From Melanopsichium pennsylvanicum (Eukaryota > Basidiomycota > Ustilaginomycetes > Ustilaginales), in NCBI GenBank assembly GCA_900208305.1, contig OAPG01000018.1, positions 124,001 to 188,000 on the forward strand: a DNA stretch of 64,000 nt. The letters run 5' to 3'. The notes under the pieces were generated by a model. The model had not been told where the DNA came from and made no database searches. It worked only from the letters and a program-made list of their open reading frames with translations. Positions 74 to 42,641 of the stretch are shown here, one piece after another. Made by a program: the position numbers and the translations under genes. Each line of letters starts with the position of its first letter. The first letter of the stretch is position 1.

Positions 74-243
74 TGTTACCGGAGGTGGATTTCAAACCCG
101 GTGAAACACTGTGTTCTATCGGGTTTCAGGTTGACATCCGCTAGAACACGTGGTTTCATCCGATATCAGTGCAACGCCCTCTGACAGCCTCCGTCTGGTA
201 CAGGAGGCCTGATGGAAGGGTGCAACATGATGTAGGACCGTCC

Positions 244-11872: not shown

Positions 11873-12966
11873 TGTTACCGGAGGTGGATTTCAAACCCGG
11901 TGAAACACTGTGTTCTATCGGGTTTCAGGTTGACATCCGCTAGAACACGTGGTTTCATCCGATATCAGTGCAACGCCCTCTGACAGCCTCCGTCTGGTAC
12001 AGGAGGCCTGATGGAAGGGTGCAACATGATGTAGGACCGTCCGCTGTGTGTGTCATGGTTGCTGACAGCCAGCACTGGTTAGCACAGGGCCCAAGCTCAA
12101 GGGCGACATGGTTGCTGGCAGTTGGTATTGTTTAACACGGGGCCCAAGCTCGTGGTTGTCATAGTTGAGGGCAGTCAGCATTGTTTAACACAGGGCCCAA
12201 GCTTGTGGTTGTCATAGTTGATGACAGTCGGCATTGATTAGCACGGGGCCCAAGCTCGTGGTTGTCATAGTTGATGACAGTTGGCATTGATTAGCACGGG
12301 GCCCAAGCTCGCGGACACGTCGAAACTCTGGTGGCCATTGATACTCTGGTGTACCAGGGTCATAGCGGACAAAGGGGAGCCCCTGGAGGGCCATAGGTAT
12401 ATAAGAACACAGTCTTTACAGCCGTGGAGGAGCGGGACTCATCCACTCTACTTTATATTAACCCAGTCTTTACTTTACAAGTCGTTATCAGTTACTCAGT
12501 ATATAGTTCTCGTCAGCAGCTGCAATCATACGGTATTGCAGCTATCCAGTGTCTGTGTTCTCCTCAGTATAAGGAGACAAGCTTCACCGACGATTGTCAG
12601 CACCATCACTGACACTACAGCACCTCAACTGTAGGCGGAACCTCAACCGCGGTCACGGAACCTCCACCGTAGCCAATTCATTATCACGACAGCTTCAAGA
12701 CCATCCGAAGCAGTCCCTGACGGTGACCAACACTTGCATCAAGAGCACTCGTGCATCGTGAAGGTCTTACAACACACAGACGAGCCGCATTACCTCTGAA
12801 CGGAGTGTTCACAGTGGTCAGTCAGCTCAAGAGTTGCGCAGCAGGTCTCATAGCGAAACACAATAGAACCAGCCTGCTTATCAGGTCTCAATCTCAAACA
12901 CGCTAAAACAGACGGTTTCAGCGGATCTCGGCGCGAAGCTTGAGTTTGGCACAACGCCCCCTGACA
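11873..12966 (+). repeat. 5' LTR of Element 1
   Basis: TGTTACCGG...CCCCTGACA, 1,094 bp, near-identical to 74-1167 and 18776-19869. The tandem array lies at about 12043-12314, the TATATAAG box at 12398-12405 and the self-primer stretch ATCCACTCTA about 43 bases further on. Confidence 0.95.
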
Positions 12967-18320: not shown

Positions 18321-18775
18321 AAGTACCATAAAACCGCCCCGGATTGCCTTGGGACAAAGCATCGCAAAAGCTAGGTTTGAATCTCAGACCCGGTAAAACG
18401 CGCTGTTTTATCCGAATTCAGTTGAAATCCGATAAAACAACCCTCTGCAGCCGATCTCAGTTGAAACCCGCTTAAAGTGGTAATTCTATCGGATCTCATA
18501 CACCGGGGCTGAAAGTGGAAGGCGACGGTTGGCGACGTCACAGGCTTTTCAACACAAACATGGTAAGAAGGAACAAGACATTGCAATTACAACATGATAC
18601 AGGCGAGTCTGTTGCATTAAGATTGCACGGAGGATCGTGGTGATATAAGAATAGATGATGAAGACCATTGCAAAAGAAGAGTTGTACACCGAGGATAAGG
18701 GCTGGTAGAAGCTAAGTTCTCTGCGCCGCCGGACTTCATTACCTTGCAGGAGCTTGGTTCTTGGAAGGGGGGTAG
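18321..18775 (+). other. 3' noncoding end of Element 1 with hairpin modules and polypurine tract
   Basis: No gene here, unlike the matching region of Elements 2 and 3. At about 18385-18505 there are alternating copies of a motif like GTTTTATCCGAATTCAG and its inverse (TTGAAATCCGATAAAAC). The stretch ends in the polypurine tract GGAAGGGGGGTAG abutting the LTR. Confidence 0.75.
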
Positions 18776-19869
18776 TGTTACCGGAGGTGGATTTCAAACC
18801 CGGTGAAACACTGTGTTCTATCGGGTTTCAGGTTGACATCCGCTAGAACACGTGGTTTCATCCAATATCAGTGCAACGCCCTCTGACAGCCTCCGTCTGG
18901 TACAGGAGGCCTGATGGAAGGGTGCAACATGATGTAGGACCGTCCGCTGTGTGTGTCATGGTTGCTGACAGCCAGCACTGGTTAGCACGGGGCCCAAGCT
19001 CAAGGGCGACATGGTTGCTGGCAGTTGGTATTGTTTAACACGGGGCCCAAGCTCGTGGTTGTCATAGTTGAGGGCAGTCAGCATTGTTTAACACAGGGCC
19101 CAAGCTCGTGGTTGTCATAGTTGATGACAGTCGGCATTGATTAGCACGGGGCCCAAGCTCGTGGTTGTCATAGTTGATGACAGTCGGCATTGATTAGCAC
19201 GGGGCCCAAGCTCGCGGACACGTCGAAACTCTGGTGGCCATTGATACTCTGGTGTACCAGGGTCATAGCGGACAAAGGGGAGCCCCTGGAGGGCCATAGG
19301 TATATAAGAACACAGTCTTTACAGCCGTGGAGGAGCGGGACTCATCCACTCTACTTTATATTAACCCAGTCTTTACTTTACAAGTCGTTATCAGTTACTC
19401 AGTATATAGTTCTCGTCAGCAGCTGCAATCATACGGTATTGCAGCTATCCAGTGTCTGTGTTCTCCTCAGTATAAGGAGACAAGCTTCACCGACGATTGT
19501 CAGCACCATCACTGACACTACAGCACCTCAACTGTAGGCGGAACCTCAACCGCGGTCACGGAACCTCCACCGTAGCCAATTCATTATCACGACAGCTTCA
19601 AGACCATCCGAAGCAGTCCCTGACGGTGACCAACACTTGCATCAAGAGCACTCGTGCATCGTGAAGGTCTTACAACACACAGACGAGCCGCATTACCTCT
19701 GAACGGAGTGTTCACAGTGGTCAGTCAGCTCAAGAGTTGCGCAGCAGGTCTCATAGCGAAACACAATAGAACCAGCCTGCTTATCAGGTCTCAATCTCAA
19801 ACACGCTAAAACAGACGGTTTCAGCGGATCTCGGCGCGAAGCTTGAGTTTGGCACAACGCCCCCTGACA
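18776..19869 (+). repeat. 3' LTR of Element 1
   Basis: 1,094 bp, same boundaries and internal features as the 5' LTR. About four differences by eye (for example TCCAATATC here against TCCGATATC). Confidence 0.95.
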
Positions 19870-20184: not shown

Positions 20185-20368
20185 TGTTAGATCGCTTGAT
20201 TAGTCAGGCGATCATTTCAACAGTCTCTCTCGGCCGAGTGATTTCCAAGCACCTGCCGCAGTCTCGTCGCACGATAGCTAAGCCTTGCTTAGCGCTCTCC
20301 TCTCTCCACTCTCTCACCATCATCATCATCACACGCACTGGCCTCGTAAGGCAGTGTTTCAAGCTTTT
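20185..20368 (+). repeat. A1 split direct repeat (left end of the Ngaro-type element)
   Basis: Matches A2 (26434-26617) over 184 bp with one visible difference (CTCCTCTCC against CTCCCCTCC). Its first 38 bases form an imperfect palindrome: TGTTAGATCGC at the start and GGCGATC plus AACA at the end. This is a plausible recombinase binding site. Confidence 0.92.
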
Positions 20369-20439
20369 GCCCCCTTTTTCCGAACCTCTGCAAGCCGTCC
20401 GGATCACAAACGCGACGCTTGCAAGTCTTCAACACACTT

Positions 20440-23055: not shown

Positions 23056-25250
23056 ATGGTGAGTTCGCCTTCTCACTCAGACGACCATGTTCGTCTTCAG
23101 CCCGCGCCGCTCCCAACAGCGCCTTCCACCTGGCTCGCGCCGCCCCCAACAGCGCCTCACCTCCGACCCGCGCCGCCCCCAATAGCGCCCTCTCCCCTGT
23201 CTGCGCCGCTCATACCGGCGCCATCACCACAGCCCGCGCCGCTCCAAACAGCGCCATCAACACAGACCTTGCCGCCCACAATAGCGCCTCTCCCACAGCC
23301 CGCGCCGCTCCAATTAGCGCCTTCACCACCGCCCGCGCCGCCCACAACAGCGCCCTCACCACAGCCCGCGCCGCTCCAATTAGCGCCTTCACCACCGCCC
23401 GCGCCGCCCACAACAGCGCCCTCACCACAGCCCGCGCCGCTCACAATAGCTCTAGGTCCTCTAGACCTCCTTGCCCCTGACGGCATCGCCGACATGTCGC
23501 CGGCCTCTGCCAGCAGCTCCATTCTTCCCCTGCTCACAGGTCTCCCGCCGCCGCCCAGGCCCAATACCGTATGCCGGCAACCCATCTTCAACGTCGCCGA
23601 CGTCCCCGCCACGATTGGATCTCTCCAACTCCACCTTTGGTCCCATTTCCTGGACCTTTACCCTGACCAGGCCTTTGCGTCTCAGCTGCAAGGAGCCCTG
23701 CGTCACGGTGTCAAGCTTGGTTACAACGGACCTCTACGTTCGTCAGCACGCTTAGAGGTAGCCAACCTACCCATGGACGCCAATGATACCTTCCACCTAC
23801 GCCGCGAGATTGACGCGCGCTTACGAGAGGGCCGTCTTCACCATGTGGTTGACCCGGACGGCATCCAACTGGTCTGCTCGCCGGTGGGTGTGGTGCCCAA
23901 GCCTCACTCTGACAAGAGGCGCACCATTTACCACCTCTCCCACCCCCGCAAGCCCGGCTCCCGCCTGCCATCAGTCAATGATGGTATCCATCCTTCCTTT
24001 GTCACCATCCGCTACGAGAGTCTTGACGCAATCATGGATTTCATTTGCAAACACCCTAGCGCCTCTCTGTGGAAAGCAGACTTGGAGGATGCTTTTCGAC
24101 ACGTCATAGTGGCCAAGTCTGACGCCAGACTCATGGGCATCCACTTCGACGGTCAATACTACCAAGAATGCGCACTCGCGTTTGGAGGACGCTCGTCGCC
24201 TTTCCTGTTCAACCTTTTTGCCGAGTTCTTGCACTGGCTCGCCTCCTTTGTGCTGCAGTCCGTGTCGCCATCGCCAAGTGCCCACTCCGAAGTCTCTCAC
24301 TACCTTGACGACTTCTTTGGTGCTTCCGACCCTGCGGCCAACGACGCCACCCCAGTCCAAGCTCTTAGCATAGCAGCGTCGGCGCTCGGCTTTAAGCTCA
24401 GCCGGCGGAAAACGGTCTGGCAGACCACCAAGCTTGAGATCCTTGGCATCGAGCTTGACTCAGTTGCTCAGACCGCCGCCATCACTCCACAGCGCAGCCA
24501 GCGCATCATCCAGCTGTGCTCGCGCATTGTCAACCGCGGCCGTGCCTCTCTGCTAGAGCTACAACAGGTGGCCGGCCACTTGCAGTTTGTCACAAGAGTG
24601 GCTCCACACGGCCGTGCTTTCCTTCGACGGATCTACGACGCCGTCAAGGCACACCATAGTGCTCCACACGGCCGCCGGATCAGCAAAGCCACACAATCCG
24701 AGCTTCTATGGTGGGTCAACACACTCCAGTCTTGGGATGGTGTTTCCCTCCTCCAACCCTCGCCTCTGCTCATTGAACACATCTGGACCGATGCCTCCAA
24801 GCGCCGCATTGGTGGCCATTGGGGCAGCATGGACCATCCCTCTGCTGCCTTCACCAAAGAGCTTTCCCGCCGCCACCGCGCTAAGGACATCCGGTTCCTA
24901 GAGGCTCTTGCCGTCCTTGAGGCCTTGCGCCTCTTCTCTCCTTCCTGGACTGGCCCTCGTCGGGTGGTCATCCACGTCGACAACGAAAACGTGGAATATG
25001 GCCTGCGCAAGGGCTCTATACGGGACACTCAGACCCAGGCGCTCTTTTGCGAGATCTTCTCGCTGTGCCTGCAGCGGCACATCGACCTAGTCCCATTCCG
25101 CGTGAGCTCTGAAGCCAACATCCTCGCTGACGCCCTCTCTCGCCGCCGCTTCTCCTTTATCCAGCAGCAGTACCCTCAAGCCTTCGCTCTGCTGCGATTC
25201 AACCGCCCGAGAGCTTTGCCAGAGCCTCTGACCTCTCCAACCAGGCCGCC
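23056..25250 (+). CDS. Reverse transcriptase-RNase H ORF of the Ngaro-type element
   Basis: Begins at ATG 23056, three bases after the ORF1 stop. The N-terminal 150 residues are Pro/Ala-rich tandem repeats (APLQLAPSPPPAPPTTAPSP-type, DNA about 23090-23450). A DIRS-type RT follows: 'VGVVPKPHSDKRRTIYHLSH', 'LWKADLEDAFRHVIV', 'ALAFGGRSSPFLFN' and catalytic YLDD in 'SHYLDDFFGAS'. RNase H begins around 'HIWTDASKRRIGGHWG' and includes 'VVIHVDNENVEYGLRKGS' and 'NILADALSRRRF'. The frame stays open to 26355, but recognisable sequence passes into the -1 frame at about 25190-25210, where the recombinase starts. The end coordinate is therefore approximate. Confidence 0.85.
23090..23450 (+). repeat. Tandem repeat coding for a Pro/Ala-rich tract
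   Basis: Imperfect units of about 30 and 60 bp built on CCCGCGCCGCCCACAACAGC and CCGCTCCAATTAGCGCC-like words. Two 63-bp units near 23320-23440 are almost identical. The array lies at the N-terminus of the RT ORF and is also open in a second frame, so copy number can change without breaking it. Confidence 0.8.
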
Positions 25251-26315: not shown

Positions 26316-26617
26316 GGCCACGGCTGGGAGCTCGCAAGCGACTCCCTCGAGTTAGGCAAAATATATGTTTCTTCCCTTATTGTCCTGGTTGTGTTCTGGC
26401 TGCGCTTGGAGACTCGGCGACTGAGACTGTTGATGTTAGATCGCTTGATTAGTCAGGCGATCATTTCAACAGTCTCTCTCGGCCGAGTGATTTCCAAGCA
26501 CCTGCCGCAGTCTCGTCGCACGATAGCTAAGCCTTGCTTAGCGCTCTCCCCTCTCCACTCTCTCACCATCATCATCATCACACGCACTGGCCTCGTAAGG
26601 CAGTGTTTCAAGCTTTT
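26316..26617 (+). repeat. B1-A2 junction repeats of the Ngaro-type element
   Basis: B1 (26316-26433) ends ...GACTGAGACTGTTGA and A2 (26434-26617) begins TGTTAGATCGC with no gap. B1 equals B2 and A2 equals A1 in length. This internal copy of the right-end/left-end junction is the hallmark of split direct repeats. Confidence 0.92.
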
Positions 26618-26727
26618 CCCACCCTCCCATTCCCCTTTTTTTTGTGATTTCTTTTTCTTTTCATGTGCTAGGTCTCGCGCACACTCCGCCTCGCTCTCAT
26701 GCGACGCTCAACCACCGTGCCCCTTAC

Positions 26728-26845
26728 GGCCACGGCTGGGAGCTCGCAAGCGACTCCCTCGAGTTAGGCAAAATATATGTTTCTTCCCTTATTGTCCTGG
26801 TTGTGTTCTGGCTGCGCTTGGAGACTCGGCGACTGAGACTGTTGA
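26728..26845 (+). repeat. B2 split direct repeat (right end of the Ngaro-type element)
   Basis: 118 bp, GGCCACGGCTGGGAG...GACTGTTGA, matching B1. About 110 bp of unique T-rich sequence separates it from A2. Element 3 sequence resumes at 26846. Confidence 0.92.
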
Positions 26846-28244: not shown

Positions 28245-29640
28245 CTAGTCCCTCAGGAAGCCCTCCAACCACGCCCAGACCACGTCCACCTGCTGTCGCG
28301 TGTTCTGCGACAGCTGCTGGATCTCGCTGATCCGGCGGAGCTCTCGCTCGCCGCCGGTCCTCAGCGACTCTGCCAGCAACAGCGCAGCCACGTCGGCCAG
28401 CCCCTGTTGAAATAACTCAGTCCCCTCCTGCACCCCGTGGAAGAGGGACTCGGCACGCCTTACGGCCGCACCCAGGTCCCCCAGGCCCGTAGCGGACTCC
28501 CCCGGCTGGCCTTGGGCCCGCGCCCGAGTGCGGCGCCGCTCTCGGGCAGCCTCGGCTGGACGGTCGGGGCGGGACCTAGCTCGCTTGCGAGCCGCCTCCC
28601 GCTCCCGACCCACCGCGCCCACCCGAGCCACCTCCTCCCTCAATTCCTCCTCCTCCTCCGGGATCTCGCCAAGTGTCCTCAGCGACAACCTGACGTTGGG
28701 GTGGGGGCGGCGACGCCGACCGACCCCCCCGGACCTCCACCTCTCAAGCAAGCACGCGTAAACCCTCATTCGGAGGGGACCTTGGGCGCCGCCAAGTGGG
28801 GGGACTGTCAGGGAAAACAAAAGGAAGAACAAGAGTCAGCCAACCACCCAATACATCGCGACAGACGCCCGACGGAAATACTTACCGCGCATATCCGCGT
28901 CGCAGGGTTGCCTGTGCTGCCCCTGACACCGACGGCAGCGGAGATCGCCTCCCGCCCGCTCACAGGCAACGCCGGCGCATACGCAGGCGTAGCAATCGCC
29001 CCACGTCTCGGCCCATAGCGGGGCAAGATCTGTCGCAGCGGCAACGGAAACACAAACGTCAGTAGCGATCCCAATCAACACAGCAATGGAACAAATACTT
29101 ACCATCACCAACGAGTTCCGGAGTGATCTCAATGGGAACCGAAGGACGCGACCACGGCATCGAATTCCGGGGCGCCAGGACAAGGGAAGTGGTGGAGGAA
29201 GGACTGACCGACGGATCGGCAGACTGTTGACGCACGGCGTGCTCGTGACGGCCTGAGTTGGCCCCCCGGGAAAGGTGAGCACGCGGGGAGCGGCGCACCC
29301 CCCGGATGGGACCAGCGGAGGTCTCCGACGGCCGATCTGTCGTAATTGAAACAAGGGGGAGGGAACAAATGTCAGTAACCCATTCTACGGCACCGACCGG
29401 TGGTTGTCAGACCCTCTGGGCCCCCCATCCACAACCGAACCACGACGGAACCACGACCGACTCACCTCCGGAAGCGGGTATTGTTGTTGTTCTTGTTGTT
29501 GTTGTTGTTGTTGCTGCTGCTGCTGCTGCCGACGCTGCCGCCGTCGCAGACGTAGGCGATGGTGGGGGAACGGTACTGATGTCGGCCGACGGGTTGTCGG
29601 CCGGGGAATCCATGATAGCGTCTGCTGGTGACGACGACAT
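28245..29640 (-). CDS. Antisense spliced gene in Element 3 with a Zn2Cys6-like cluster
   Basis: Transcribed against the element, between pol and the 3' LTR. Exons are 29640-29466, 29336-29103, 29029-28886 and 28804-28245. Introns are 129, 73 and 81 bp with donors GTGAGT, GTAAGT and GTAAGT, and each acceptor ends in CAG. All three introns are phase 1 and the frame stays open, giving 370 residues. A TATAAGG box lies about 60 bp upstream (near 29705). The N-terminus is Ser/Ala/Thr-rich. Exon 3 holds C149-X2-C152-X6-C159-X8-C168-X2-C171-X7-C179, which fits the Gal4-type Zn2Cys6 spacing. The C-terminal part is Glu/Arg-rich and probably coiled coil. A DNA- or RNA-binding regulator of the element is a guess. 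It is not a usual pol or gag product. Confidence 0.7.
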
Positions 29641-33742: not shown

Positions 33743-33747
33743 CTGAG

Positions 33748-34756
33748 TGTCAGCGGTCGCGTGCCAGAGATCCGAATTCCCGTGAGAAAGCGCGACTCGC
33801 CGGATTTCAGTGAATTCCGGCGGTTAAGCTTGGCCTCAACGGATATCGAAGAGAATCCTGCGAGTGGCGATCTCTCGACGGATATCGGCTGACCGCTGGT
33901 GACACTCCGTACAGAGGTAACGCGGCAAGCTCGGACGGGGTATTCGGTCGACGCGAGTGTCACGACGTCGACGGGATACTGCTGATGGCTGGGTTAGACC
34001 TCAGCCGTCGTTGTCGGTGGAGTTATGAGGGACTGGTTGTGGTGCCAGGCCCGCGGTTGAGGTTCCGCCTGTAGTGGAGGTGCTACAGCGTCGATTGTGG
34101 TGTCGACGACGTCTATACGTTGTTCTCCGTTCACCGACGGGGACACAGACTATATGGATCGCAATAAATGGTATTGTGATGTGCGACGTGTGAAGAGTAT
34201 GGTAAGTACGACGTACTGATAACTATGTGTGACTGAGATATAAGATAGAGTGGATGAGCTTCCGCTCATCCGATAGCGGGGAACAGAGTATTTATATATA
34301 TGTATCGTGTGCGAGGTCCATCGGTACTGTACGACCTGCGTGCGTCGAGCTTGGACCCCCGCACGATAAGACTGCCCCCTAGTCCTTCGGCAGGGTGCTT
34401 CCGAGCACGCCCGCGTGCTCTCTCTCCGTTGCCCCCTGGGCGTCGGTCGGCCCACGTGTCGCTCCGGCTGGCGTTGGTCGCCGCCGTCGCAGATGCTCCC
34501 CTTGCCATCGATACCTTCGATATCCGGCGAGTCACTGCCACTCGCCGAATTTCCGTGAGATCCGTTGAGACCTGCTCTCTCACCGGATTTTGTCCGATTC
34601 AACTTCTCGGTTCTGCGCTAACCTTAAATCCCATGAGCCCACCAATATCCACCAGATCTCCCTGAGATCCGTCGAGACATGCTCTCCCACCGGATCTCAG
34701 CCGATTCAACATCTCTGGTCTGCGCAGCCTTTTCCTTGGGACCCACTCCCGTGACA
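33748..34756 (-). repeat. 3' LTR of Element 2 (family 2)
   Basis: Plus-strand sequence TGTCAGCGG...CCCGTGACA; in element orientation TGTCACGGG...CGCTGACA. Contains a TATA box and ATCCACTCTA as in copy 10745-11306. Confidence 0.95.
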
Positions 34757-34858
34757 CTACCCCCCCTTCGAGAGCCGAGCTCCGTTGAGGCTTAAATAGG
34801 GTCGGCGGGTGTTTCCCCGACTTATTCTTCCACCAACAGCGTTTCCCAAAATATCACA
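34757..34858 (+). promoter_or_regulatory. Promoter region of the antisense gene in Element 2
   Basis: About 100 bp between the LTR edge and the antisense ATG. It contains CTTAAATAGG (near 34790), a TATA-like box, and a short CA-rich leader before AATATCACAATG. The promoter lies inside the element and next to the polypurine tract, so every insertion carries it. Confidence 0.5.
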
Positions 34859-36016
34859 ATGCCAAGCACTTCAAACACTGCCCCTTCCGCTGCGTCATCG
34901 CGACCAGCGTCGACACAAATGCCTGCCTTTTGGGCAGACGAGCCTGTGCGTCGTAGCGCCAGGCTTCGCGAAAGAGATCCTGCCACTCGGGCAGTGGCAA
35001 CCCCTTTGGCTGTCGGCCTCGAGGCCACAGCTACATCGTCCTCTGCTGCCGGCGAGCAGCCTCTCGAAATTGTTGCGGCCGAGCAGCTCGTCGCGTTGCG
35101 GTCGACGCCGCGACCACTAGAACCGTTGTTCCTGGGGAATGATGCTACAGGGGAGGAGGAGGAGCGGCTGGAGGCAATGGAGGTGGAGGAGTCAGTTGTG
35201 GGGAGGGTTAGCGAGGCCAGGGGGGACCCTGTTGCTCCGCTCGTTGGGCCTCGTGTGCCAAACCACCTCGAGATCGCGCTGTGGGCGGAGTCTTTTATCG
35301 CTCCGGTGTTGCTGGTATTTGTGGCGTGCGGGGCCTGGCCCCCTACTTGGGAGGTATCGGAGGGTTCCGTGACGGCCGGTTGGCTGCATCGTCTGGTCCT
35401 CCTTCGACTGACCGAGGGCTGCATGCCTTGGCCGAGCTGGCAATGCGCCCGATGCGCGAAGCTTGGTATACCGTAAGTACTACTGCTCCCTTCTCCGTTC
35501 GATACTCGTGTCCGTTCGATACGCATTGCTGACCGCGGTTCTCCCCTTTTTTGTCCCAGTTGTTTTGCGTCGGCTTTCGCTGACGTACTTTCTGCCGGTG
35601 GCAAGGGCAGGACTCCGCGCGCTTGTGTGCACTGCCACCTTGGCGGCCACAAGAAATGCGTGCGTACTGTGAGGGCGTTGCCAACGACGGTATACGCTGG
35701 CGACGCTCCCCCTCGCCATCTGCATCGAGGCGAGCGTGGCGTCGAGCGAGCTCACGTCACTGGAGCGGGAGGTCGAGGATTGGGGGAGGTACGTGGGATC
35801 GACCGTGACTCGGATGGTGTGGCGGACCCCCACTGGGCGCATGCAATGCGCATCATTTGGTCTGCCTCGCCTCGTAGTCGGCGAGTCCCGGTGCTGACGA
35901 TGATCGAGGAGTACTTCGATCGTCAGCGGCGAGTGCGGTCTATGCGCTCGCCATTCGAGGCTCTCGAGCCTTCTTCGGTGCCTGGGCCTTCATCAGCCCC
36001 CAAGTCGGCGGAGTAG
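34859..36016 (+). CDS. Antisense spliced gene in Element 2 with a Zn2Cys6-like cluster
   Basis: Transcribed opposite to gag and pol. Exon 1 is 34859-35472. The first intron is 35473-35559 (GTAAGT...CCCAG) and keeps the frame. Two further introns are likely, 35669-35729 and 35789-35877, because coding character shifts frame there and both lengths restore it. This gives four exons and 306 residues; without them one exon 2 gives 356. Residues 196-238 hold C196-X2-C199-X6-C206-X20-C227-X2-C230-X7-C238, the same spacing as in Element 3 except for a longer middle loop. The N-terminus is Ser/Ala/Thr-rich with 'RRSARLRERDPATRAV'; the middle is acidic; the tail has 'VLTMIEEYFDRQRR'. Function unknown; a nucleic-acid-binding regulator is inferred. 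Confidence 0.62.
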
Positions 36017-36455
36017 TCTGTGCCCGCTGGCTGTGTCAACTTGTTGCAATGGCAGTGCTTCGTTACCCATTGAACCTAGTGTGAGCCTGATTGTGTGACT
36101 TCCGGTGTGCAACAGGTGCGACGACTCTGAGAAATATACTTGTCAACTCGCGTCGCCCATTAAGGCCTGAGATCCTTTGGATCATGCATTCCTCGGCAAA
36201 TTTCGTGACTTTTAGGTTCTCGTTACCCCGCAATTTTTTTTTTATATTTTTTCTCTGAGATCCGTTGAATTCTGCAGTACTTGGCGGATTTCGTGGAAAT
36301 TCCCTGAGTTGGGGTCATTGTCCGGATCTCGATTCCTGCAACCTTCTACCTTCGCCGCTCGACATCGTCCTTGTCGAGCTTCGTCCTTGTCGAGCTTCTC
36401 ACCATCTTACTCTCCTGTGATGGCATGCATCGCGGCTCGCAAGCTCCTCTTCGGC
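36017..36455. other. 3' region of Element 2 between the antisense gene and the pol stop
   Basis: Contains a hairpin-module cluster near 36250-36345 (GGATTTCGTGGAAATTCC-like) and a poly-T run (36234-36250). No further gene. The antisense gene and pol are convergent here. Confidence 0.6.
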
Positions 36456-39400
36456 TTAGTGTCTCCGTCCCCCCGCCAATTCCTCATACTCCCGGATGAG
36501 GTCTGGGCAGTTGAGACAGTCTGTCGGTTCCCACAAGGCTGCCTCCTCGGGGTAGCCCCTCCATTGGACTTTGTACTGCACTTGCCTACCTTGTGTTCGC
36601 TTTCCCACAATAGCCTCTACCTCGAATTCTAGAGTGTCGTCCGGTAGGGGCGGCGTGATTTTGAGTGTGGAGCGCTGTGGGAGTGAGCTCGCCCTTTGAG
36701 GCTCGAGCATCGAGACATGGAAAACGTCGTGTACGCGCAAACTTGCTGGGAGTTGGAGCCGGTATGCTCTTCTGCCGATTCGTTTGAGGATGGGGAACGG
36801 GCCTGCTAACCTTGTGTCGAGTTTGGGACTGGGTCGAGCTGTCTTCCAGTTCTTTCGGTTGACGTAGACCATGTCTCCAACTTTGAACTCGATGTCCTTT
36901 CGTTTGCGGTTATATTGCTCAACGGTTTGGCTTTGAGCGTACCTGATTTGCTCCTGTAGATACTCCGTAAATTCTTTTCTTCGGGTGGCAAACTCTTTTC
37001 TCTTGGGGTCGAGCACACCGACTTGTTCTGGGAGATCGGGGTGTGACTTTGGATTCCACCCGTAGCAAGCAAAGAAAGGCGAGACTCCTATGCTGCTGTG
37101 GACCGTGTTGTTGTAAACGAACTCGGCCATCGGCAGCCAGGTTACCCAGTTGTCCTGCTCGTAGTTGCAGTACATACGGAGGTACTGCTCAACAACTTGA
37201 TTGACTCGCTCCGTTTGCCCGTCCGTCTGTGGGTGGTAGGCTGTGCTGAGCGAGTGGTGGATGACCAGCTTGTCGGTGAACTCTTTCCATGCCGCCGAGA
37301 CGAATTGTCGGCCGCGGTCTGAGACAATGTGCTCCGGTACCCCGAAACGGGACATAACTTGGTCTTTGAGCATCTTTTCCGTCTGCTCCGACATTATTGT
37401 CTTGTACGTCGGGGTTAAGATGGCATATTTGGTCAACCGGTCGACCACTACGAAGATCGAGTCATACCCCTCCGATTTAGGTAACCCTTCAATGAAATCC
37501 ATCGAGATGGAATTCCAGGGTCTTGACGGCGTCGACAGCGGCTGCAAAAGGCCATATGGTCGGTGTCGCGGTGCTTTATATCGAGCGCACACTGGGCAGC
37601 TTGCTACATAGTCAGCAACCCATGCCGCCATATTCGGCCACCAATAATGCCGCCTTGTGAGCTCGAGGGTGGCGTCTCGACCTGCATGGCCAGCGGTAGC
37701 GCCGTCGTGGCATTGGGACATTACCATGTATCTCAGGTGCTCCACCGAGAGCGAGCGATCCTTTGCTTCGGCAGCACTCCGAGTGTTGCGTTGACCTTTC
37801 TTACCTGGTAATGTGACTCGCGGCACCACTAGCCAACCGTCGCGATACCACAGGCCATGTCTAACTTCGAAAGGTTGCTTCTGATGAAGCTCTGCGAGCT
37901 CGGCATCGAGCGGCTGGAAAGTCTTTACGAGTTGGACCAGCCCTCCCTCCGCAATATCGGACATCGTTGGCTTTAGCATATTTATTTGAGATTCGGCGAG
38001 TAGCTCTTTCTTGGCGAATTTCAGTGAAATCCGCCGAGTTGAGTCCACTCGGCGGTTTTCGAAATCCTCGGCAAATACTCGTGCCGGTAACAGCTGTCGG
38101 ACGTTGTGTAGGTCTTCTTCTGCGGTCGGCTGCATATCACTTCGTCGTGTCAATGCATCTGGCTCTCCCGCTTTATCTCCCGGTCTGTATTGGAGTACGA
38201 AGTTGAAGTCAGCGAGTAACACCGACCATCGAGCCTGCCGACCTGTGATCTTCCGCTGAGATTTGAAGTATTTGAGCGCCTCGTGATCAGTGAGAATAAT
38301 GAGCTGACTAGGTAGTCCTGCAAGCATGTGCCGCCAGTGGTTGAGACAGACAACAACAGCGAGGAGTTCCTTGTCATGGATCTCGTAGTTCTTCTCCGCC
38401 GATGCCATCTTGCGCGAGTAGAATGCTATTGGGTGCCATCGTCCGTCGTGCTCTTGTTTAAGTACTCCAGCGAGAGCGAAGTCGCTTGCGTCCGTTTCCA
38501 ACCGGGTAGGACGATGGTAATCAAAGTGTTTGAGAACCCCAGCGGTGGTGAACATTTCCACCAGCTTGTGGAAAGCAGCGCGAGCGTCGTCAGGGAGGTC
38601 GAACTTTTTGAATCGCTCTGTGGGCTTAACGAGGGAAGTGAGCGGTCTCGCTATACGTGCAAAGTGAGAGATGAATCTGCGATAGAAGTTGGCGAACCCG
38701 AGGAAGCGTTGGATGTCGTGTATAGACTCCGGCATCGGCCATTCCTTGATAGTCCTGATCTTGTCGGGGTCCATCTCGATACCTGACGGCTTGATAATGT
38801 AGCCGAGGAACTCAACAGTATCGGTATGGAACACGCACTTCGAGAGTTTGGCAAATAACCGCCATACCTTGAGCCTACTGAGCACCGTCCTGACGTGCTC
38901 GATGTGTTCCTTCTCATTGTCGCTGAAGATCAGGAAGTCGTCCAGGTATACTACCACGTATACGCCAATGATGTCGCGGTAGATGGTGTTGATGAGCGAT
39001 TGGAAGTGCGCGGGCGCATTTGCCAATCCGAATGGCATGACCAGATACTCATACAGTCCGAGTTGAGTTCCAAACGCGGTTTTCCATTCGTCCCCGTTGG
39101 CGATCCTAACCAAGTTGTAAGCTGCCTTTAGGTCCAGCTTGGTATAGATCTTCGCTTTTCGTAGGAGGAACAGCTGCTCCTCGATTAAGGGCAGTGGCGC
39201 TCGGTTCTTAACCGTGACCTCGTTGAGACCGCGGTAGTCTACGCAGAGTCGCAGGCCGCCGTCCTTCTTAGGCACGAAAAGGACGGGTGATCGCGCCGGG
39301 CTCTTTGAGGGCCAAATGAATCCTTTCTCGAGGTTCTCTTCGAGGTACTTCCTCAGCTCGGCCATCTCCTTAGGGCCCTTGAGATATAGCGGACCTTGAG

Positions 39401-40220
39401 GTGGCGTCGAACTGGGTAGTAGCTCGATGTGCAAGTCGTGCTTTGTGTGAGGGGGAAGCTTGTCCGCTTCGACCTTGTCGAATACATCCTTGAGGGGGTA
39501 GTACGGGGCTGGGATGTCGACAGCAGTGGGAGGCTCTTCTAGTGTTGTTTCCATCTCTATGCCTTTGTCGCCTCCCGTGGGGACAAAGCCAAACGACGGG
39601 AGCGACGTCGGAGGAGCGCTGATTAGCATGACCCCTATGGGGCCATCCCATAGTGCCGCCTGAACAAGCTCGTTGGCGTCGACGAACTCGTAGCCATGTA
39701 CTACTAAGTTTGCTCGAGATTCGGCAGATCGGCCGGTCTCGGCGGATTTCGGTGAAATCCCTTGAACGACCGCGTCTGACCGGATCTTGTTGGGTTTTCC
39801 GAAATCGAGCTGTCCAGTATTCCAATGGACCCTTGGCTGTAGGCGTCGTAGTTCATCGTACCCCAGGATGAAATTGTAGTCGCTAGCGTCAGCGACGGCA
39901 ACCTTGAGCATCCCTAGGTGTTGTCCTCCTATGACTACGTCGACGTCAGCAGCGCTCGTGATCGTGAGGGAATGTCCGGTCACTCCGTGTACGGTTCTGT
40001 TTTTTATGGGTTTTGTGGTTATCAAGTACTTGCAAACAAACGGAGCTGAAACTATAGACAATGCAGCGCCGGTGTCGGCGAGGATGCTAGCAGGATGGTG
40101 GTTGACCGTACCTGTTAGCTCGAGTACTGAGGCACCGGAAGCTGCAGAGAAACATAATGAACAATCTTGACATATACAAGGTGATGGCAAAGGCAGTCTT
40201 AGAGCGATGCATGCCATCAT
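36456..40220 (-). CDS. pol: Pol of Element 2 (protease, RT, RNase H, integrase, chromodomain)
   Basis: An intact 1,254-residue polyprotein. Protease D49-T50-G51. RT with 'VLFVPKKDGGLRLCVDYR' and YLDD in 'VVYLDDFLIFSDN'. RNase H 'TDASDFALAGVL'. Integrase HHCC finger ('GHAGRDATLELTRRHYWW', 'CPVCARYK') and core ('SDRGRQFVSAAWKEF', 'YHPQTDGQTERVNQ'). C-terminal chromodomain 'EAIVGKRTQGRQVQYKVQWR'. The start ATG overlaps the gag stop in ATGATGG, so expression probably relies on termination-reinitiation. The protease-RT and RNase H-integrase linkers each hold a hairpin module at the same places as Element 1. All catalytic residues I can check are present. Confidence 0.95.
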   Translation of the reverse strand: MMACIALRLPLPSPCICQDCSLCFSAASGASVLELTGTVNHHPASILADTGAALSIVSAPFVCKYLITTKPIKNRTVHGVTGHSLTITSAADVDVVIGGQHLGMLKVAVADASDYNFILGYDELRRLQPRVHWNTGQLDFGKPNKIRSDAVVQGISPKSAETGRSAESRANLVVHGYEFVDANELVQAALWDGPIGVMLISAPPTSLPSFGFVPTGGDKGIEMETTLEEPPTAVDIPAPYYPLKDVFDKVEADKLPPHTKHDLHIELLPSSTPPQGPLYLKGPKEMAELRKYLEENLEKGFIWPSKSPARSPVLFVPKKDGGLRLCVDYRGLNEVTVKNRAPLPLIEEQLFLLRKAKIYTKLDLKAAYNLVRIANGDEWKTAFGTQLGLYEYLVMPFGLANAPAHFQSLINTIYRDIIGVYVVVYLDDFLIFSDNEKEHIEHVRTVLSRLKVWRLFAKLSKCVFHTDTVEFLGYIIKPSGIEMDPDKIRTIKEWPMPESIHDIQRFLGFANFYRRFISHFARIARPLTSLVKPTERFKKFDLPDDARAAFHKLVEMFTTAGVLKHFDYHRPTRLETDASDFALAGVLKQEHDGRWHPIAFYSRKMASAEKNYEIHDKELLAVVVCLNHWRHMLAGLPSQLIILTDHEALKYFKSQRKITGRQARWSVLLADFNFVLQYRPGDKAGEPDALTRRSDMQPTAEEDLHNVRQLLPARVFAEDFENRRVDSTRRISLKFAKKELLAESQINMLKPTMSDIAEGGLVQLVKTFQPLDAELAELHQKQPFEVRHGLWYRDGWLVVPRVTLPGKKGQRNTRSAAEAKDRSLSVEHLRYMVMSQCHDGATAGHAGRDATLELTRRHYWWPNMAAWVADYVASCPVCARYKAPRHRPYGLLQPLSTPSRPWNSISMDFIEGLPKSEGYDSIFVVVDRLTKYAILTPTYKTIMSEQTEKMLKDQVMSRFGVPEHIVSDRGRQFVSAAWKEFTDKLVIHHSLSTAYHPQTDGQTERVNQVVEQYLRMYCNYEQDNWVTWLPMAEFVYNNTVHSSIGVSPFFACYGWNPKSHPDLPEQVGVLDPKRKEFATRRKEFTEYLQEQIRYAQSQTVEQYNRKRKDIEFKVGDMVYVNRKNWKTARPSPKLDTRLAGPFPILKRIGRRAYRLQLPASLRVHDVFHVSMLEPQRASSLPQRSTLKITPPLPDDTLEFEVEAIVGKRTQGRQVQYKVQWRGYPEEAALWEPTDCLNCPDLIREYEELAGGRRH

Positions 40221-41587
40221 TGCATCGCTCCAAGGTCGTTTCCCTCGTCCTCGTGGTAGGGCTCGCCTGCGTCGTGATCGTCGGCGAAGAGGTTGGGGTC
40301 AAAGTGGTCTTCAAGACCGCCATCGTCTTCGCAATGGTCTTCAGCTCCGTCTCCTTCCTCTGGTGAGCCGTCCTGTGGTTTCTCCGACTCCAACACCACG
40401 TGCGCTCGCATCTGTGGTCCTGATGGTCTAGCCGGGTAAACCGTTGGCTTGGCGTCTGGACAGTTCCGCTGCCAATGCCCGGTCTTGCCGCAGACCCTAC
40501 AGGCGTCGCTGTTAAATGTTGTCGGGCCGGGGACAACCCTTTGGTCGTCGCGAGGTCTCGGTGGTGCTTCCCGTACCGGCAGCTTCTGTGCCAGATGAGG
40601 GGGCAACGGTCGAGAGCCAGTTCTCTGGGGAATGCCCGGTTCAGTCTGAGCAGTCCTGATTGCTGGGGTTGGGGCAAAGCGGACAGCATTCTGCTGATGC
40701 CGCATACGCTGGCGATCAATGTCCTCGACCTCCCGGTACCAGGCCCACTGGTCTTCAGGTGGGTTACGCTCGAACTTCTCCTGAAGTGAGCGAGTAAGGC
40801 TCCCTCGGAAGAGGTCAATGACGAACTCAGGGTCCTCCATGTGGCACTGAGCTGCCAGGTCTCGGAATTGCTCGACATGTCGCGTTGCTGCTCCTGGTGT
40901 GTCGGTAATAAACCTCAACGCTAGGAGTTTGTTGTAGGCATCGACCCTGTCGCTGCGCTGATTGTACAGCTCCCTGAGTCGAGTGGTGAAGTGGCTCCAA
41001 TCATGGAAGAGCATCCCTTGACAATGCCGATCGACGCGGAGCTTACCCTTCCACCACTCTCGAGCGGTGCCCTCGAGCTGGGCTGCCGTGTGTAAGATCA
41101 TCGAAGTATGGTCGTACACACCATTAGCCTTGAACCAAGCGTCGGCCTCGAGAATGAAGATATCGATGTCGCGAGTGTCGAGCTTGGGGAATGGAGTCTT
41201 GAGGGCAGCGTGGGGCTGAGTGTCCTGTTCACTGCCAGTGCCGGTCCATGCCTCCGGAGTCACCGGTTTGACATACCGAGGTCCAGTAGGCGTAGCGTAC
41301 TTCTCTTGATCGGTGTACGCTCGTCGGTCAAGAATGTCGAAGGTGACGGACCGAGGGTGTGGTCTAGTCGCAGGCGTGGGTGTCTCGAGACCACCGAGGT
41401 AGGACTCATCCGCCTGCTGCGAGGCTCGACGGGTCGGGGAGCTTAGATCATGCTCCCTAGCTCGTCGACCAGGGGATGGAGTCTCCTGTTGGTCGAGCCG
41501 AGCCTTGAGTGCGGCATTGTCTACCTGCTGCTGCTCAAGGAGGGCGATGAGGCGGTCGAGTCTGTCATGTAGTGCAGAGTCGGCCAT
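40217..41587 (-). CDS. gag: Gag of Element 2
   Basis: 456 residues. The N-terminal coiled coil reads 'DRLDRLIALLEQQQVDNAAL'. The Gag core includes 'IFILEADAWFKANGVYDHTS', 'EWWKGKLRVDRHCQG' and 'DLFRGSLTRSLQEKF'. A single CCHC knuckle is CRVCGKTGHWQRNC, followed by an acidic tail. It is homologous to Element 1 Gag throughout but clearly diverged. The stop codon overlaps the pol start by four bases. Confidence 0.93.
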   Translation of the reverse strand: MADSALHDRLDRLIALLEQQQVDNAALKARLDQQETPSPGRRAREHDLSSPTRRASQQADESYLGGLETPTPATRPHPRSVTFDILDRRAYTDQEKYATPTGPRYVKPVTPEAWTGTGSEQDTQPHAALKTPFPKLDTRDIDIFILEADAWFKANGVYDHTSMILHTAAQLEGTAREWWKGKLRVDRHCQGMLFHDWSHFTTRLRELYNQRSDRVDAYNKLLALRFITDTPGAATRHVEQFRDLAAQCHMEDPEFVIDLFRGSLTRSLQEKFERNPPEDQWAWYREVEDIDRQRMRHQQNAVRFAPTPAIRTAQTEPGIPQRTGSRPLPPHLAQKLPVREAPPRPRDDQRVVPGPTTFNSDACRVCGKTGHWQRNCPDAKPTVYPARPSGPQMRAHVVLESEKPQDGSPEEGDGAEDHCEDDGGLEDHFDPNLFADDHDAGEPYHEDEGNDLGAMQ

Positions 41588-41613
41588 CTTGGTGAACTTG
41601 GGGCGTCGCTTGT

Positions 41614-41627
41614 ACGATCCACTCTAA
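41614..41627 (-). other. Minus-strand primer site of Element 2 (self-priming type)
   Basis: On the minus strand TTAGAGTGGATCGT follows the 5' LTR, identical to Element 1. TAGAGTGGAT is complementary to ATCCACTCTA in the family-2 LTR, which sits 45 bases after the start of the TATA box. Confidence 0.7.
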
Positions 41628-42636
41628 TGTCAGCGGTCGCGTGCCAGAGATCCGAATTCCCGTGAGAAAGCGCGACTCGCCGGATTTCAGTGAATTCCGG
41701 CGGTTAAGCTTGGCCTCAACGGATATCGAAGAGAATCCTGCGAGTGGCGATCTCTCGACGGATATCGGCTGACCGCTGGTGACACTCCGTACAGAGGTAA
41801 CGCGGCAAGCTCGGACGGGGTATTCGGTCGACGCGAGTGTCACGACGTCGACGGGATACTGCTGATGGCTGGGTTAGACCTCAGCCGTCGTTGTCGGTGG
41901 AGTTATGAGGGACTGGTTGTGGTGCCAGGCCCGCGGTTGAGGTTCCGCCTGTAGTGGAGGTGCTACAGCGTCGATTGTGGTGTCGACGACGTCTATACGT
42001 TGTTCTCCGTTCACCGACGGGGACACAGACTATATGGATCGCAATAAATGGTATTGTGATGTGCGACGTGTGAAGAGTATGGTAAGTACGACGTACTGAT
42101 AACTATGTGTGACTGAGATATAAGATAGAGTGGATGAGCTTCCGCTCATCTGATAGCGGGGAACAGAGTATTTATATATATGTATCGTGTGCGAGGTCCA
42201 TCGGTACTGTACGACCTGCGTGCGTTGAGCTTGGACCCCCGCACGATAAGACTGCCCCCTAGTCCTTCGGCAGGGTGCTTCCGAGCACGCCCGCGTGCTC
42301 TCTCTCCGTTGCCCCCTGGGCGTCGGTCGGCCCACGTGTCGCTCCGGCTGGCGTTGGTCGCCGCCGTCGCAGATGCTCCCCTTGCCATCGATACCTTCGA
42401 TATCCGGCGAGTCACTGCCACTCGCCGAATTTCCGTGAGATCCGTTGAGACCTGCTCTCTCACCGGATTTCGTCCGATTCAACTTCTCGGTTCTGCGCTA
42501 ACCTTAAATCCCATGAGCCCACCAATATCCACCAGATCTCCCTGAGATCCGTCGAGACATGCTCTCCCACCGGATCTCAGCCGATTCAACATCTCTGGTC
42601 TACGCAGCCTTTTCCTTGGGACCCACTCCCGTGACA
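41628..42636 (-). repeat. 5' LTR of Element 2 (family 2)
   Basis: 1,009 bp, near-identical to 33748-34756, followed by the CTGAG duplication. Confidence 0.95.
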
Positions 42637-42641
42637 CTGAG

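Follow-up and report, generated by a model that had tools for sequence, protein, structure and literature searches.

What does a spliced gene do that lies antisense to gag and pol in a fungal retrotransposon, and is it a gene at all? We met this question in a 64,000-bp stretch of the smut fungus Melanopsichium pennsylvanicum (GCA_900208305.1, contig OAPG01000018.1, positions 124,001 to 188,000, forward strand), here referred to as the window. One of its long terminal repeat (LTR) retrotransposons, denoted Element 2, carries on the plus strand a gene (34859-36016) that lies in the interval from the 3′ LTR to the pol stop (36456), with no overlap with pol. Element 2 has gag, a pol with protease, reverse transcriptase, RNase H and integrase, a C-terminal chromodomain and flanking LTRs, which makes it a chromovirus (Ty3/gypsy). 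Elements 1 and 3, also in the window, are used for comparison.

A two-exon antisense gene under purifying selection

At least 41 genome matches to the antisense gene of Element 2 were found, at 40 or more places. We retrieved 40 places and aligned the 29 copies that span the gene, leaving out 11 partial ones; the copy counts in this section refer to those 29. The ATG, the AG acceptor and the stop codon were present in all copies and the GT donor in 28. No copy had an exon frameshift, and the frame was fully open in 16. Only two types of exon indels were seen, both multiples of three (9 bp in one copy and 21 bp in six) and none of them in exon 2, while the indels of the intron were mostly of frame-breaking lengths, including a 17-bp deletion in 15 copies. 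The ratio of nonsynonymous to synonymous substitution (dN/dS) of the spliced frame was 0.286, with 0.329 for exon 1 and 0.233 for exon 2; by region, it was 0.56 at the N-terminus, 0.21 around the first cysteine triad and 0.144 in the first 43 codons of exon 2. Parsimony-informative sites were concentrated at third codon positions in exon 1 (41, 30 and 68 sites at the three positions, p 0.00026) and in exon 2 (26, 18 and 49, p 0.00024), while intron 1 showed no codon periodicity (10, 10 and 10). Since exon indels come only in multiples of three, intron indels break the frame, dN/dS is low and third positions vary most, the Element 2 antisense gene is a real protein-coding gene under purifying selection, with a product of 356 amino acids.

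The first-pass annotation of the window, made from the sequence alone, had predicted a plus-strand spliced gene at this place with a first intron that restores the frame, and both predictions agree with the copy alignment. Its four-exon structure, on the other hand, is refuted, as a single frame is open from intron 1 to 36016. The two further introns had been given as lengths only (61 and 89 bp) and were placed here at ~35690-35750 and ~35790-35878; neither stretch has an indel in any copy, and both are constrained in the retained frame (dN/dS 0.27 and 0.23). In the segment that separates the two stretches, dN/dS was 0.08 for the retained frame, as compared to 3.3 and 2.0 for the other two frames. 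Codon-position counts were 8, 3 and 13 in the 89-bp stretch (p 0.044), a third-position bias, and 3, 4 and 4 in the 61-bp stretch (p 0.91), which is too short to tell. Longer homologues from Ustilago read through both stretches.

Upstream of the gene, positions 34784-34802, around a TATA-like TTAAATA, were without any change in the 29 copies, and the 5′ untranslated region (34820-34858) was variable at 13 of its 39 sites. The gene is also found in most copies of its family, as 33 of the 37 pol-end copies adjoin a gene match; of the other four, three have gene remnants and one is rearranged.

A six-cysteine protein shared with Ustilago

The Element 2 protein has six cysteines in the arrangement C-X2-C-X6-C-X20-C-X2-C-X7-C. 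Two-exon translations of four copies were identical, letter for letter, to the public proteins P0001-P0004. A profile search, which scored only the candidates sharing most words, reached 87 proteins, the named ones being from Melanopsichium and Ustilago species. The pattern CX2CX6CX(18 or 20)CX2CX7C was present in 15 of the 87, and many of the others were truncated, some of them exactly at the intron (P0034-P0036). The six cysteines are thus conserved in another genus. The middle loop has 20 residues in Element 2, 18 in the Element 1 family and in Ustilago, and 8 in Element 3, so that the cysteine pattern which the first-pass annotation took to be the same in different elements is shared in its two triads but not in its middle loop.

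Presence and loss of the gene among related elements

Loci identified by a search with P0026 (L069-L073, L075 and L076) are members of the Element 1 family and carry, 3′ of pol, antisense sequence homologous to that of Element 2, with an identical intron site and six cysteines. The gene is intact in three copies (L069-L071), where it is open over 439 amino acids, and broken in three other loci: L072 has a stop, L073 misses a part, and the C22 copy (L075/L076) is interrupted. L069-L071 are without the integrase part of pol, with the antisense gene open.

Through pol, L072 and L073 share 99.3% identity with the window's Element 1; they match it up to 18640 and resume from 18634, with 1371 and 820 bp in between. 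The deletion in Element 1 begins just before the ATG and finishes just before the stop, and its loss of the gene, proposed in the first-pass annotation, is supported by these near-identical copies that keep homologous gene sequence there. When 40 of 84 candidates were scored, the same gene-less junction was found in at least 20 Element 1 copies with 98-99% identity, the window's copy included, as compared to six loci with gene sequence; the gene is therefore not present in most copies of this family. One deletion has multiplied; it follows that copies can do without the gene in cis, that the gene is provided in trans, or that losing it was favoured.

A third family (L074; 63.5% in pol and ~31% in the antisense protein) is decayed but has the identical intron site. 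The antisense accessory gene is shared by more than one chromovirus family, with an intron site common to divergent families. Apart from the gene, 53-bp tandem units were observed in the LTR of Element 1's family (202-568, 12001-12367 and 18904-19270).

The antisense gene of Element 3

Element 3 also has an antisense gene, with four exons by splice signals and triads of the form CX2CX6C-X8-CX2CX7C. It was open in 18 of 20 aligned copies and under weak constraint (dN/dS 0.62). No homology between the Element 2 and Element 3 proteins was detected by BLASTP (E 2.8) or by hhalign (probability 1.5%, with Element 3 as a single sequence). Of the old shared accessory module suggested earlier, the presence of the gene in more than one chromovirus family stands, while a single ancestral module for the Element 2 and Element 3 genes is unsupported by these comparisons; a remote homology is possible. 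Their common position and cysteine pattern may be a result of convergence.

Three public proteins (P0037, P0038 and P0040) skip the zinc-motif exon of Element 3 (28886-29029, minus strand), possibly by alternative splicing or by choice of the prediction. In another public model, P0043 (MEPE_01710), the Element 3 antisense exons, including the zinc exon, are fused to a protein with PF00565 and PF00567, which we take to be nuclease-like and Tudor domains, respectively; this is either exonisation or an annotation artefact. A 33-bp tandem repeat lies in the coding region of Element 3, at the start of a long open reading frame (23098-23483). Repeats within the element (20185-20375 with 26434-26625, and 26316-26433 with 26728-26845) suggest that its pol was interrupted by another insertion.

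Everted CCG-N19-CGG modules in Elements 1 and 2

Prompted by the LTR and the hairpin modules, which the first-pass annotation had named as binding targets to be tested, we scanned for CGG-type sites and found a 37-bp everted repeat, TNARAYCCG-N19-CGGRTYTNA, in which the centres of CCG and CGG are 22 bp apart, about two helical turns. Among the 14 half-site pairs (spacing 0-40) that lie in an LTR or between pol and LTR in Elements 1 and 2, 7 have the N19 spacing, as compared to a mean of 0.025 N19 pairs in 40 mononucleotide shuffles. Control regions (39 kb) had 15 pairs; five of these were at N19, each within the gag-pol part of Element 1 or 2. All 23 N19 matches of the window fall in Element 1 or 2 family sequence, and none was found in Element 3 or in host genes within the window.

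Across the genome, 351 matches to the core pattern have the N19 spacing, none has N18 and 35 have N20, with no inward-facing match, and all but one of the N20 matches are the module at 36262. Among 50 N19 places listed, 49 have the spacers of Element 1 or 2 modules, with seven distinct modules; as these places are few distinct modules, most of the 351 matches are copies. The exception is a lone module (C1:2101752, L080:4251-4287) with an unlike spacer near Element 3-type repeats.

Within the U3 part of the Element 2 LTR, the module at 34663-34699 had no variable position in 16 LTR copies as compared to 8 of 97 positions in its flank, a difference that is not significant alone. Both U3 modules sit between the TATA-like box that points into the antisense gene and a TATA-like sequence on the sense strand, so that the antisense protein, if it binds DNA, could act in trans on transcription both ways.

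Table 1 Features of Elements 1, 2 and 3 in the window
Feature	Position	Strand	Basis or remark
Element 2, chromovirus	33748-42636	-	
Target-site duplication of Element 2, CTGAG	33743-33747 and 42637-42641		
3′ LTR of Element 2 (left end on plus strand), TG...CA	33748-34756	-	99.6% identity to 41628-42638 over 1011 bp
5′ LTR of Element 2	41628-42636	-	LTR-LTR match
gag with CCHC knuckle	40217-41587	-	Retrotrans_gag and zf-CCHC
pol: protease, reverse transcriptase, RNase H, integrase, chromodomain	36456-40220	-	Pfam
Candidate sense promoter in LTR, TATA-like	34290-34301	-	putative, from sequence
Candidate antisense promoter outside LTR, TATA-like TTAAATA	34792-34798	+	putative promoter activity
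Antisense gene, exon 1 (ATG at 34859, first two cysteines)	34859-35472	+	29-copy alignment
Antisense gene, intron 1 (87 nt, GTAAGT...CAG)	35473-35559	+	70-93 nt among 29 copies
Antisense gene, exon 2 (cysteines 3-6, stop at 36016, no further introns)	35560-36016	+	no indel in 29 copies
Everted module CCG-N19-CGG in U3 of Element 2	34556-34592		
Second U3 module of Element 2	34663-34699		
N20-spaced module between antisense stop and pol stop	36256-36293		
Two weaker N19 modules within Element 2 pol	37987-38061		
Further weak N19 module within Element 2 pol	39753-39789		
Three N19 modules, 39-bp period, between pol and LTR of Element 1	18384-18498		
N19 module at U3 end of Element 1's LTR	18794-18830; also 11891-11927, 92-128		
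Junction of the deletion removing the antisense gene from Element 1	18634-18640		L072/L073 comparison
Antisense gene of Element 3, four exons	29640-28245		splice signals

Possible function and alternative explanations

The observations, namely a gene with splicing signals that is under selection, its distribution over the families, its loss from a subfamily that has amplified, and the modules, may be read as follows. The element would encode a zinc-cluster protein that binds the CCG-N19-CGG modules and regulates its own promoter and that of gag-pol, a reading to which we give a probability of roughly 0.45. Transcription of its mRNA would begin at the TATA-like box next to the 3′ LTR and be followed by splicing, and the intron would be kept through retrotransposition because it lies antisense to the genomic RNA, as follows from the mechanics of retrotransposition. 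The protein, predicted to be disordered at its N-terminus and to contain a conserved helical block as well as a six-cysteine domain resembling a binuclear zinc cluster, would go into the nucleus and bind the 37-bp modules as a dimer. Binding in U3 could adjust the amount of the protein itself as well as the transcription of gag-pol, and the protein would thereby be a self-encoded regulator that senses copy number and acts in trans on all copies bearing the site. The wider picture, namely a retrotransposon with its own spliced, antisense-encoded transcription factor and a dedicated 37-bp palindrome, forming a feedback circuit in trans which a gene-less subfamily escapes or exploits, is put forward tentatively, as less likely than not.

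Several points weigh against the regulator reading. Canonical Zn2Cys6 domains have the spacing CX2CX6C-X5-12-CX2CX6-8C; both triads of the protein fit, but its 18-20 loop is too long, and the Pfam Zn_clus (PF00172) score of P0001 is 8.3 bits, below the curated cut-off of 21. The first-pass description as Zn2Cys6-like thus holds for the triads, and membership in the family is not established. P0025, P0026 and the Element 3 protein gave no match in a PF00172 search, a Foldseek search gave none at E <= 10, and the first structure prediction was poor, with a predicted local distance difference test (pLDDT) score of 36; structural support for the predicted binuclear zinc-cluster fold is weak. The first triad or more is spliced out in 8 of 9 public models aligned, a set selected from those without the full cysteine pattern, plus P0001; these models of M. 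pennsylvanicum use an upstream donor, which removes residues ~153-205 with the first triad. Constraint on these residues favours the full-length form, and both isoforms may exist. Point stops occur in 13 of the 29 copies, and codon 261 (35726-35728) is a stop in eight copies on different branches, which suggests either that a CpG site has decayed repeatedly or that the protein tolerates losing the C-terminal part beyond the zinc motif. Gene-less copies outnumber gene-bearing ones in the Element 1 family, where the gene is not needed in cis. The half-site consensus was derived from the modules themselves, and these may be duplicates of one ancestral site, in which case N19 was inherited and not selected. 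Transcription, nuclear entry, zinc binding, DNA binding and regulation are all steps that we infer, as is the link between protein and modules.

Alternatively, the accessory protein may be under selection while the partner of its zinc domain is RNA or protein, with a role such as nucleic-acid chaperone, nuclear import or anti-silencing factor; the modules would then be bound by a host factor or by a different protein of the element. This is unlikely, though not strongly so: the coding evidence fits it too, the protein has no canonical Zn2Cys6 signature, and modules inside gag-pol (14954, 14993, 37987, 38025 and 39753) are unusual for promoter operators. On the other hand, dimers of fungal zinc-cluster proteins classically recognise CCG triplets placed in symmetric half-sites with fixed spacing, and in the window the modules occur in the two families sharing the protein and in neither Element 3 nor host genes. 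It is considerably less likely that the modules are hairpins of the genomic RNA, serving as packaging or dimerisation signals recognised by Gag. Several of them are near-perfect palindromes, and inner pairing is slightly higher within modules (4.54 of 9) than between them (3.75 of 9), positions 11 and 14 being paired in excess; at most positions, however, pairing is what composition predicts, inner pairing is nearly absent from some modules (1 to 3 of 9), and the half-sites are conserved as sequence, not as pairing.

That the antisense RNA matters rather than the protein, through double-stranded RNA or interference, is quite improbable. Element 1 copies keep the region upstream of the ATG after loss of the coding part, and antisense RNA may persist there, but the dN/dS of the spliced frame, its indels in multiples of three and the six cysteines conserved in another genus speak against it. 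A chance open frame in GC-rich antisense sequence can practically be dismissed, the copy alignment having already refuted it: an open reading frame in the same register on the opposite strand also has lowered dN/dS (0.454 in exon 1 and 0.348 in exon 2), but only 4 of the 29 copies are without a stop in it, both exons have a lower value in the plus frame, and the intron is conserved.

Relation to known antisense genes

Plant Ty3/gypsy elements have antisense genes between pol and the 3′ LTR, the aORF-3R, such as gene23 of Grande and those of RIRE2 and of Retand (ORF4, TRP28), with nuclear localisation and an own promoter reported for Grande and DNA binding predicted for TRP28 (PMC7264820, PMC11963269). 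The Element 2 gene resembles them in position, antisense orientation, presence in most copies of its family (PMC7264820, PMC11963269) and conservation as a protein. It differs in that it belongs to a fungal chromovirus, is spliced and has a six-cysteine domain in place of TRP28; the protein and domain searches made gave no relation in sequence to the plant proteins. In fungi, brtn of Boty from Botrytis cinerea (Zhao et al. 2011) is an additional antisense gene of an LTR element (PMC7264820, PMC8365987); its host is an ascomycete, unlike that of the smut gene, and the two are likened here by description, without sequence comparison. In the mussel Steamer-like element MchSLE-1, the 3′ LTR gives an antisense RNA with an open reading frame expressible in cell culture; the host is an animal, and the abstract and headings of that report do not mention a zinc-cluster protein (PMC10974842). 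An antisense promoter of human T-cell leukaemia virus (HTLV) is also cited in the review of such genes, which states the function of the antisense genes of Ty3/gypsy elements as unknown (PMC7264820).

The HTLV-1 gene HBZ lies antisense at the 3′ end, and its product is a nuclear regulator of viral transcription of the basic leucine zipper (bZIP) type; the smut gene is like it in position and encodes an unrelated protein. From fungal Zn2Cys6 factors such as Pho7 and HAP1, the smut protein is set apart by its middle loop, its Pfam score and by being encoded in a retrotransposon. Among the titles and abstract openings covered by our literature searches, there was no antisense zinc-cluster gene in an LTR element, nor one with matching palindromes.

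Smut genome sizes are reported to track the expansion of LTR elements (PMC9603552). The smut family offers a tractable case, with selection over 29 copies, amplified gene-less siblings and a candidate site with exact spacing. If the protein does bind the module, this would be an LTR retrotransposon encoding its own sequence-specific transcriptional regulator.
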